A stretch of DNA of 39,244 nt from Clostridia bacterium (GTDB lineage: Bacteria > Bacillota > Clostridia > Oscillospirales > CAG-272). Positions 37,410-39,244 of the stretch are shown one piece after another. The stretch covers positions 1-39,244 of the forward strand of contig JAFVWS010000024.1 in assembly GCA_017501545.1 (NCBI GenBank), written 5' to 3'. The notes under the pieces are model-generated. The model was given only the letters and a program-made list of their open reading frames with translations. It did not search any database and was not told the DNA's origin. The position numbers were made by a program, and so were the translations under genes. Numbering within the stretch: position 1 is the stretch's first letter; every line of letters begins with the position of its first letter.

Positions 37410-38435
37410 TTATCTTTGTACTCTACCGCTTCCGCCGCCCTTGATAAGACCCTCAACCTCTTTTACGCTGACTAAGTTATAGTCACCGATGATTGTGTGC
37501 TTTAGGCAGGATGCAGCAACTGCAAATTCAATTACGTCTTGGCTGGACTTCTGCATAAGTGAAGCGTAGATAAGTCCGCCACCAAATGAGTCGCCACCGC
37601 CAACACGGTCAACGATGTGAATGTTGTAGGAGCGTGAGAAGTAGTATTCATTCTCCGTCTTGTCATAAAGCATAGCAGCCCAAATGTTGTCATTTGCTGA
37701 AATGCTTGTTCTAAGTGTGATTGCAACACGCTTAAAGCCAAAGCGTTCTGAAAGCTGGCTTGCAACGCTCTTATATCCCTCGTGGTTAACAACGCCAGCA
37801 TCAACGTCGGTGTTTTCAGCCTTGATGCCGAATACCTTTTCAGCATCCTCTTCGTTTGCAATGCAAACGTCAACAAGCTTCATAAGCTCGCCCATTACAC
37901 GGCCAGCCTCCTCAGTTGACCAGAGGTTTTTACGATAGTTAAGGTCACAGCTTGTGGTAATGCCCTTCTTACGGCATACCTTAAGTGCGTCCATGCAAAT
38001 TTCAGGAAGCTCACCACCGAGTGCTGGAGTAATTCCTGTAAAGTGGAACCAGTTAGCGCCGTCAAGGATTTTCTCCCAGTCAAAGTCGCTTCTCTTTGCA
38101 AGAGCAATGGCAGAATAAGCACGGTCATAAATAACCTTTGATGGTCTTTGTGATGCGCCTGTTTCAAGGTAGTAAATACCAACTCTATCGCCACCTCTTA
38201 CAATATCGCTTGTGTCAACACCATAGCGACGAAGTGAGTTTACTGCGCTTTGACCGATTTCGTGGCTTGGGAGCTTTGTAACATAGGAAGCATCAATGCC
38301 ATAGTTAGCAAGTGATACAGCAACGTTAGCCTCACCACCACCGTATGTAGCGCCGAATGTATCTGTTTGAATAAATCTTGTGTAGCCAGCTGGATTAAGT
38401 CTAAGCATAATCTCGCCAAAGCAAACCGTTTTCAT
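37410..38435 (-). CDS. kdgK: 2-keto-3-deoxygluconate kinase (PfkB family)
   Basis: 341 residues. PfkB/ribokinase fold: 'FGEIMLRLNPAGYTRFIQTD' start and 'GGGEANVAVSLANYG' (substrate and Gly-Gly switch), 'GITPALG' and 'CDLNYRKNLWS' in the middle, and the catalytic signature VDRVGGGDSFGGGLIYA with base Asp282. The start and the 'FTGITP..DLNYR' block are typical of KDG kinases rather than fructokinases. It phosphorylates 2-keto-3-deoxygluconate, the UxuA product, to KDPG. Single gene with its own promoter, 21 kb from uxuA. KDPG aldolase is not in the window. Confidence 0.9.
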   Translation of the reverse strand: MKTVCFGEIMLRLNPAGYTRFIQTDTFGATYGGGEANVAVSLANYGIDASYVTKLPSHEIGQSAVNSLRRYGVDTSDIVRGGDRVGIYYLETGASQRPSKVIYDRAYSAIALAKRSDFDWEKILDGANWFHFTGITPALGGELPEICMDALKVCRKKGITTSCDLNYRKNLWSTEEAGRVMGELMKLVDVCIANEEDAEKVFGIKAENTDVDAGVVNHEGYKSVASQLSERFGFKRVAITLRTSISANDNIWAAMLYDKTENEYYFSRSYNIHIVDRVGGGDSFGGGLIYASLMQKSSQDVIEFAVAASCLKHTIIGDYNLVSVKEVEGLIKGGGSGRVQR

Positions 38436-38470
38436 AATATAAACCTCGTATAATAAAATTTGTCAATAAA

Positions 38471-38499
38471 ATTATATAACAATTAAAACCTTTAGTCAA
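38471..38499 (-). promoter_or_regulatory. Promoter of kdgK
   Basis: TTGACT (38499-38494), 17 bases, perfect TATAAT (38476-38471) on the minus strand. Confidence 0.78.
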
Positions 38500-38528
38500 G
38501 GCTTTGGTTGTATTTTTCGTAATAAAAG

Positions 38529-38765
38529 CCTTCCCCTTGAGGGGAAGGTGTCATCCTTTGATGACGGATGAGGTGTTGATATGCTTTAATATGTCTTTGC
38601 AAGCATGCCTTCCCCTTGAGGGGAAGGTGTCATCCTTTGGTGACGGATGAGGTGTTAATGTGCTTTAAAATGTCTTTGCAAACATGCCTTCCCCTTGAGG
38701 GGAAGGTGTCATCCTTTGATGACGGATGAGGTGTTAATGTGTTTTAAAATGTCTTTGCAAACACC
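38529..38765. repeat. Array of three 79-bp units at the 3' side of the DUF559 gene
   Basis: Units begin at 38529, 38608 and 38687, exactly 79 bp apart. Each has CCTTCCCC/GGGGAAGG hairpin, TGTCATCC..GGATGA hairpin, then about 35 bases (GTGTTAATGTGCTTTAAAAT and on) that are copies of the last codons of the DUF559 gene. The third unit is itself the 3' end of that gene, supplying its last codons and stop. Confidence 0.93.
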
Positions 38766-39077
38766 ATCAAAGTTCTTATCAATATCATAATTTGAATAAC
38801 GCAGAACCTTAAGACCAAGGCTACTTAAGAAAGCATCTCTTTCTTTGTCTTTAATTTGCGCTTTTTCTTCGTAGTGCTGTGAGCCATCAAGCTCGACAAC
38901 AATTTTTGCACTTGCGCAATAAAAGTCAACAACGTATTTACCGATAACCTTTTGTCTGTTTATAGTAATGGGAAGCTTTTTGAAGAAATCATACCAAAGT
39001 CTTTTTTCTTCGAGGGTCATATCTTTCCGAAGGGATTGGGAAATGTTGGTCAAATATTTGTTAGCTTTTCCGTTCAT
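38709..39077 (-). CDS. DUF559 protein (Vsr/restriction-endonuclease-like fold)
   Basis: 122 residues, usual length for the family. DUF559 signature: 'MTLEEKRLWYDFFKK' helix, 'NRQKVIGKYVVDFYCASAKIVVELDGSQHYE' with the Asp51 / Glu62-x-Asp64 acidic set and His68 of the Vsr-like nuclease core, then 'KERDAFLSSLGLKVLRYSNYDI'. It is related in fold to very-short-patch repair and type II nucleases; catalytic action is unproven for the family. The ribosome site GAGGTGG and ATG belong to the flanking repeat on one side, and the last eight codons (NTSSVIKG) plus the stop belong to the repeat on the other, so gene and repeats form one unit. Confidence 0.9.
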   Translation of the reverse strand: MNGKANKYLTNISQSLRKDMTLEEKRLWYDFFKKLPITINRQKVIGKYVVDFYCASAKIVVELDGSQHYEEKAQIKDKERDAFLSSLGLKVLRYSNYDIDKNFDGVCKDILKHINTSSVIKG

Positions 39078-39244
39078 TACACCACCTCATCCACCACTGG
39101 GTGGTCCCCCTTCCCCTCAAGGGGAAGGCAGATACTATCTTTTTCGTTCATTACACCACCTCATCCACCACGAGGGTGGTCCCCCTTCCCCTCAAGGGGA
39201 AGGCAGATATTAGCTTTTTCGTTCATTACACCACCTCATCCACC
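39072..39244. repeat. Array of 74-75-bp units at the 5' side of the DUF559 gene
   Basis: Units marked by GTTCATTACACCACCTCATC start at 39072, 39146 and 39221 (cut by the window end). On the minus strand each unit reads: ribosome site GATGAGGTGG, TAATGAACGAAAAAG (a copy of the gene start), then the CTTCCCC/GGGGAAG hairpin and GACCACC. The array continues beyond the window. Confidence 0.92.

Follow-up and report, generated by a model that had tools for sequence, protein, structure and literature searches.

The locus studied here raises the question of whether a small gene of the DUF559 family belongs together with the palindromic repeats that surround it, and whether such a pair can move as a unit. 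Few non-coding sequences are as common in bacterial genomes as palindromic repeats, and to our knowledge RAYT is the only enzyme family that has been tied to them. The window, that is, the whole stretch of DNA that was analyzed (39,244 nucleotides), is all of contig C21 of a Clostridia genome of 1.86 Mb in 49 contigs. The DUF559 gene lies close to its right end between two arrays of short repeated units (Table 1). Its protein matched the Pfam family DUF559 (PF04480) with 110 bits, against a gathering score of 20.6.

Table 1. Features of the DUF559 locus in the window.
Feature	Position	Strand	Basis and remarks
DUF559 gene, 122 aa	38709..39077	-	Open reading frame; PF04480, E = 6.9e-32; stop codon within second hairpin of 3' end
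Inner 3' end: palindrome 38687-38706, second hairpin 38707-38724, third arm GATGAGGTG 38725-38733	38687..38733	+	Sequence; palindrome search; folding of the first unit's end
Inner 5' end, inverted: CACCTCATCC 39083-39092, partial second hairpin, palindrome 39109-39128	39083..39128	-	Sequence; palindrome search; folding
3' array: three 79-bp units, each an end plus a copy of the gene's 3' end	38528..38764	+	Repeat analysis
5' array: ~2.5 units of 74-75 bp, each an end plus a copy of the gene's 5' end	39062..39244	-	Cut at contig end
Target duplication, one copy (3' end of ogg-like gene)	38504..38527	-	Other copy at start of C43, 22/24 letters alike

The inner unit on each side is an inverted end of ~50 bp, composed of a palindrome, a full or partial second hairpin and GGATGAGGTG facing the gene. 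The palindrome CCTTCCCCttgaGGGGAAGG, with arms CCTTCCCC/GGGGAAGG, is common to the units of both arrays. In the 3' array, each unit runs from GCCTTCCCCTTGAGGGGAAGG through the hairpin TGTCAtcctttgaTGACG (one letter of which is changed in the middle unit) and GATGAGGTG to ~30 bp copied from the 3' end of the DUF559 gene, and identity to unit 1 is 94% for unit 2 and 92% for unit 3. The 5' array has palindromes at 39109-39128 and 39184-39203 and three copies of the stretch with the ribosome site and start codon. Single-strand folding of the two ends, compared with shuffled sequences, gave z-scores of -5.5 and -3.2. A search of positions 38400-39244 against Rfam returned nothing at a family's gathering score, and five weak matches were taken as chance.

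The repeat structure described in the original prediction is real, as judged by unit coordinates, identities, folding and a reversed-pattern control, and its view of the gene as the inner part of a palindrome-capped unit was supported. One detail had to be changed. The three 3' units of 79 bp with a copy of the gene end are present, but the copied part comprises ~17 codons plus the stop codon instead of 12 codons, because the stop codon falls inside the second hairpin. The 5' units have the expected length of 74-75 bp and carry the ribosome site and start codon, and they number ~2.5; the third is incomplete because the window is the entire contig C21 and the unit is cut at the contig end. Another contig, C43, starts with a unit of the 5' array type followed by an ogg-like gene and is therefore probably the other side of the break. 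The first 60 bases of C43, before the array unit (L019, 1-60), appear unrelated to C21, possibly an assembly artifact at the repeat. Elsewhere in the window, positions 1332-1480 hold a tandem repeat with 12/18-bp units, GGCTCAGGCTCGGGTTCA.

The same ends occur elsewhere in the genome. When the whole genome was searched for the palindrome with at most two mismatches, 14 forward hits were found at four places (C21, C20, C34 and the start of C43), whereas the reversed pattern gave none; together with the folding z-scores, this argues that the palindrome is not due to chance. On C20, a row of units lies between a gene and a tRNA gene. On C34, there are four 97-bp units, each consisting of an end and ~49 bp copied from the 3' end of the esterase-like gene that precedes them. 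A second DUF559 gene, located on C43, has a different palindrome, CTCCCTCtgacGAGGGAG, as its cap, and beside it the 3' end of a histidine kinase (HK) gene is partially duplicated (123 bp by alignment). The window arrays thus represent one case of a general pattern in which an end and a duplicated flank are repeated in tandem. The arrays had been viewed as partial copies of the DUF559 gene in particular. This has to be corrected to a tandem of the palindromic end and duplicated neighboring sequence, which is not specific to the DUF559 gene because similar units (the four on C34) adjoin an unrelated gene.

In an alignment of 38 proteins, with the window protein as the first row, T21, E24, W28, Q42, D51, F52, D64, G65, H68, D77, R80 and R93 are invariant, and E24, D51, D64, H68 and D77 may form the active site. 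When the profile of these relatives was compared with solved chains, it matched 3hrl at E = 2.1e-23 and 3r3p at E = 1.4e-5, the former being named endonuclease-like and the latter being a mobile intron protein; matches to defense nuclease profiles were weak. Excerpts of earlier reports assign DUF559 to the EDxHD homing endonuclease family (PMC9403480) and describe a Caulobacter DUF559 protein as Vsr-like and tied to DNA damage in cells without a methyltransferase (PMC12907096). In a phylum-wide sample, many weak DUF559 matches lay within open frames of 1,000-1,800 residues, so that a DUF559-like nuclease domain also occurs in large proteins.

We searched 146 genomes of the same family for DUF559 and found 137 matches in 68 genomes. 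Two sets of loci were used in the analysis of flanks. Set 1 comprised 91 of the 137 matches, from 53 of the 68 genomes and mainly from the top of the list, and left out weak, truncated and some contig-edge matches. Set 2 comprised 80 of 562 confirmed named loci of another collection, among the matches listed, two of which were letter-for-letter repeats of set 1. A palindrome with the pyrimidine arm first was present within 250 bp of DUF559 at 79/91 loci of set 1 (control genes, 9/49) and, among the matches listed, at 77/80 loci of set 2 (control genes, 25/128), leaving 12 and 3 loci, respectively, with no such palindrome at this distance. Purine-first palindromes, which served as a built-in control, were found beside DUF559 at only 4/91 and, among the matches listed, 1/80 loci. 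Palindromes with mixed arms were about as frequent (33/91 and, among the matches listed, 25/80) as near control genes (11/49 and 44/128). A third, purine arm was found near the palindrome in 99/153 and 114/172 cases, compared with 27.7 and 41.3 expected from letter shuffles.

The two flanks of the gene were also compared with each other. In set 1, the upstream flank and the inverted downstream flank aligned with a score of at least 30 at 45/90 DUF559 loci versus 2/134 control genes; when upstream flanks were paired with inverted downstream flanks across genomes, 12% of the pairings reached this score. The corresponding numbers for set 2, among the matches listed, were 44/79 and 4/128. Thus, the pairing of DUF559 with palindromes holds for most homologs, as had been predicted. 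The gene lies between two inverted palindromic repeats that are also found loose, and the loose forms include doublets (~135-170 bp) that have inverted ends but lack the gene. In a viral collection, 58 of 80 loci were analyzed (22 weak or repeated loci were left out), and pyrimidine-first palindromes within 250 bp were detected at 24/58 DUF559 loci and were absent from the remaining 34.

Palindromes were then counted in whole genomes with two palindrome patterns, the figures being transcribed by hand between steps. The 68 genomes with DUF559 had a median of 21.5 palindromes, whereas the 78 genomes without it had a median of 1 (p = 1e-13), and at least five palindromes were present in 64/68 and 24/78 genomes, respectively. 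After four palindromes had been subtracted for each gene match, the medians were 14.5 and 1 (p = 1.4e-6). Among genera holding both kinds of genomes, those with DUF559 were richer in palindromes in 23/27 genera (p = 5e-5, shuffling within genera), and in 20/27 after the same subtraction (p = 2e-4, shuffling within genera). These data agree with the expectation that the hairpins are far rarer where DUF559 is lacking. However, at least 10 palindromes were also found in 17/78 genomes without a DUF559 match, many of which are incomplete MAGs; it is possible that the gene was lost from such genomes or that another mover is involved. The subtype of the caps agreed only moderately with the subtype in the rest of the genome (13/19 and 14/21, p = 0.028).

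In the phylum-wide sample, in which one palindrome pattern was used, two genomes had a strong DUF559 match and no copy of the pattern. In two genomes of one family, G200 and G315, which lack a strong stand-alone DUF559 match, there were 11 and 8 CCTTCYCC palindromes. Reading six DUF559 places of this sample revealed a pyrimidine-first palindrome at three and none at the other three.

The analysis was extended to 25 records of other origin, 24 from a plasmid collection (Alpha-, Beta- and Gammaproteobacteria, Deinococcus and Cyanobacteria) and one phage-collection contig; L319, in which DUF559 is within a long protein, was dropped. On one or both sides of the gene, a pyrimidine-first palindrome lay within 250 bp in 19/25 records, compared with 7/228 random windows of the same loci, and a purine-first palindrome by DUF559 in none of the 25. 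In a Sphingomonas, a DUF559 gene is located between sufB and sufC and another in a transhydrogenase cluster, and the sufB/sufC regions of Xanthomonas and Azospirillum records align without the gene. In the hpa cluster of three Deinococcus species, it occupies three different places (L318, L364 and L372); at the hpaE junction, Deinococcus NW-56 has a DUF559 gene, and the genes overlap by four bases in D. proteolyticus. The DUF559 gene of E. coli, ycjD, was matched in 3365/5426 genomes. A strict palindrome test found none near it, and an imperfect element-like stretch lies ~185 bp downstream. Two E. coli genomes without ycjD have efflux genes beside sapF and not an empty site.

A comparison of filled and empty sites, which had been proposed as a check and was run across sister species, found both states at three genes of one genus (ogg-pfkB, esterase and HK). 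In the source genome, an insert occupies the gap that separates the ogg-like gene from pfkB. Of the 15 loci of the genus that were read, two others hold a different insert or the remnant of one, and 12/15 have no such palindrome by eye, one of the 12 having another repeat. Between ogg and pfkB of G167 (L125), there is a different inverted repeat, tcagccctcagccgtcagcagtcag. On either side of the window's insert lies a copy of the ogg 3' end, and the two copies agree in 22/24 letters, provided that C43 joins C21.

The loci compared numbered 12/20 for the esterase gene and 9/20 for HK. At the esterase gene, four solo units are present in G000, one solo end in G165 and a doublet in G167, and a complete DUF559 element of a different subtype is found in G150 and G158: the complete elements are capped with CCTTCTCC and the solo units carry CCTTCCCCTTGA. 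Seven of the 12 loci compared have no insert. The nearest of them is that of G168 (86% protein identity), and the six others are more distant, with different downstream sequence. At the HK gene, a DUF559 element is present in G000, G158 and G165 and only ends in G150, and nothing is inserted in 5/9 loci compared. Direct duplications surround several of these inserts: 66/67 letters around a complete 438-bp element at HK in G165, 42/42 around a 509-bp element at the esterase gene in G150, 42/49 around a 516-bp element at the same gene in G158, and 38/44 at the solo end in G165. No direct duplication was found around the full element at HK in G158. Among 91 loci palindromic on both sides, outer-flank direct repeats scoring at least 30 were detected at only a minority (16/91), compared with 0.3% by chance, and most of these 16 loci are hairpin arrays. 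Two further loci have clean direct repeats adjoining the ends (40/43 and 35/40).

Copies of the element were also compared. G140 carries, on separate contigs, a pair of identical DUF559 match stretches, which lie in a module of 701 alignment columns with 95% identity and unrelated flanks. This module of ~700 bp (L066 and L067) contains a promoter-side hairpin and an embedded doublet, and its two copies in the genome are recent. In one subtype, 17 copies from many genomes share a sharp common left end, outside of which the sequence differs, and many of them have a further repeat in common on the right. The CCTCCCTTGTG-subtype copies (L027, L028, L034, L040, L053 and others) share ~150 bp on the right side with further hairpins and CCTTTAGAGT. 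The same ~150-bp repeat, possibly the end of another mobile element, adjoins the gene-less doublets L129-L131.

The observed capped layout, statistical pairing, filled and empty sites and duplications are best explained by a single-gene mobile element of ~440-510 bp, formed by the DUF559 gene and two inverted palindromic ends and driven, as we infer in part, by its nuclease. We give this reading a probability of roughly two in three. The element inserts at gene 3' ends and leaves long direct duplications of variable length (24, 42, ~49 and 67 bp). A plausible mechanism is that DUF559, as a Vsr/EDxHD-like nuclease, recognizes its own palindromic ends and nicks opposite strands of the target at positions separated by tens of bases; the long duplications would then result once the element is joined and the gaps are filled. 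The element-encoded nuclease would be the obvious candidate for the two distant nicks. Single ends and doublets without the gene would be non-autonomous offspring moved in trans, and tandem arrays might form through slippage, unequal exchange or renewed insertion that amplifies a unit of end and duplicated flank. A broader proposal, which we put slightly below even odds, is that bacterial palindromic repeats have in DUF559 a third type of enzyme behind them, namely a minimal nuclease moving or copying itself and its ends by two distant nicks, and that the large ownerless classes of palindromes with pyrimidine arms, seen in Clostridia, Alphaproteobacteria, Deinococcus and others, descend from it as non-autonomous offspring.

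The main rival explanation is homing into pre-existing palindromes. DUF559 would then be a free-standing homing endonuclease that targets the palindrome, repair would copy the gene into the cut repeat, whose halves become the caps, and the ends would spread otherwise. This would account for genes located between inverted ends and for the co-occurrence of gene and palindromes, it fits the placement of DUF559 in the EDxHD family in the cited excerpt (PMC9403480) and the profile match to a mobile intron protein in the PDB, and the esterase and HK genes do carry only ends in some species and the full element in others. However, the full elements and solo units at the esterase gene differ in subtype and do not appear to represent one repeat that was halved, and complete elements have their own target duplication, which is expected of insertion and not of repair of an old repeat. 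Homing also leaves the spread of the ends unexplained, and we consider it unlikely. That the gene and palindromes have no mobility of their own is very improbable. The GC-rich palindromes would be terminators or binding sites at gene ends, where DUF559, a Vsr-like repair or defense gene, happened to land; the location of the ends at gene 3' ends, the weak match to defense nuclease profiles and the Vsr-like description of the Caulobacter protein in part of its report (PMC12907096) are in line with this, but control genes in the same loci seldom have such palindromes, the two sides are inverted copies of one another, and insertions with duplications were observed, the filled and empty sites already straining such an account.

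Alternatively, DUF559 might be a passenger whose ends are moved by another enzyme, for example an IS200/IS605-type (Y1) or a DDE transposase. DDE elements produce a short target duplication of fixed length, whereas the duplications of DUF559 elements vary in length. According to a portion of PMC2817692, IS200/IS605 elements give no larger target duplication, in contrast to the 24 to 67 bp seen here; the duplications therefore fit neither mode. The same portion names RAYT enzymes, which are Y1 transposases, as the known partners of REP palindromes. Y1 matches were detected in 55/146 genomes, and these genomes have somewhat more palindromes (median 15 vs 5, p = 0.018), but the link is weak within genera (15/26, p = 0.18) and is gone once the genomes are split by DUF559 (p = 0.41 and 0.63). 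The Y1 transposase, the family chosen for comparison, is thus a weak candidate for the mover, with no link to palindromes beyond that of DUF559. The further 150-bp repeat on the right side is shared by copies of one DUF559 subtype, and part of the spread may therefore ride on another element. Overall, a passenger role appears improbable.

The single-gene element has features in common with several known systems. The gene-less DUF559-type doublets resemble MITEs and small interspersed repeats (RIME of rhizobia, for example) in size (~135-170 bp) and inverted ends; unlike them, the doublets have an identified candidate autonomous partner with the same ends. REPtrons and BIMEs are described in parts of PMC2817692 and PMC3733652 as a small gene between inverted palindromic repeats, with loose repeats at gene 3' ends, arrays and patchy presence. 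DUF559 elements similarly consist of one small gene capped by inverted palindromes, and show loose single or paired repeats, arrays and patchiness. However, the enzyme is DUF559 (PF04480) and not a Y1 (PF01797) tyrosine transposase, no GTAG tag was seen, and the palindromes have the pyrimidine arm first and a third, purine arm, with long direct target duplications. The element was not filed as a REPtron because the Y1 transposase, a defining feature, is absent.

An excerpt of PMC3733652 also reports CGTC-tagged REPs, a large palindrome class without a dedicated transposase. They are similar in that their palindromes are located at gene ends in several phyla and have no known mover, and one hairpin of the DUF559 ends starts with CGTC on the outer-to-inner reverse strand. 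The identity of the two was rejected: CGTC before an 8-9 bp stem starting with AT was absent from loci L001-L227, and the others searched gave one stray match. EDxHD homing endonucleases such as I-Bth0305I have a kindred nuclease domain, by profile match (3r3p), but the DUF559 element has no intron or intein, carries palindromic caps and uses many insertion sites with target duplications. The Vsr mismatch endonuclease is alike in the fold stated for the Caulobacter DUF559 protein in the excerpt of PMC12907096, and differs in that the DUF559 gene is part of a capped mobile unit. We found no account of DUF559 in a palindrome-capped mobile element in the literature searched, most subscription journals and preprints being outside this search.

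The DUF559 gene may thus be an unrecognized source of bacterial palindromic repeats, and the origin of another large palindrome class becomes directly testable with one protein of 120 residues. The tandem arrays account for pieces of host genes that are duplicated at gene ends. The long and variable duplications point to a mode of DNA insertion unlike that of known bacterial transposases. If the nuclease is shown to drive the movement, DUF559 elements would be a new kind of system.
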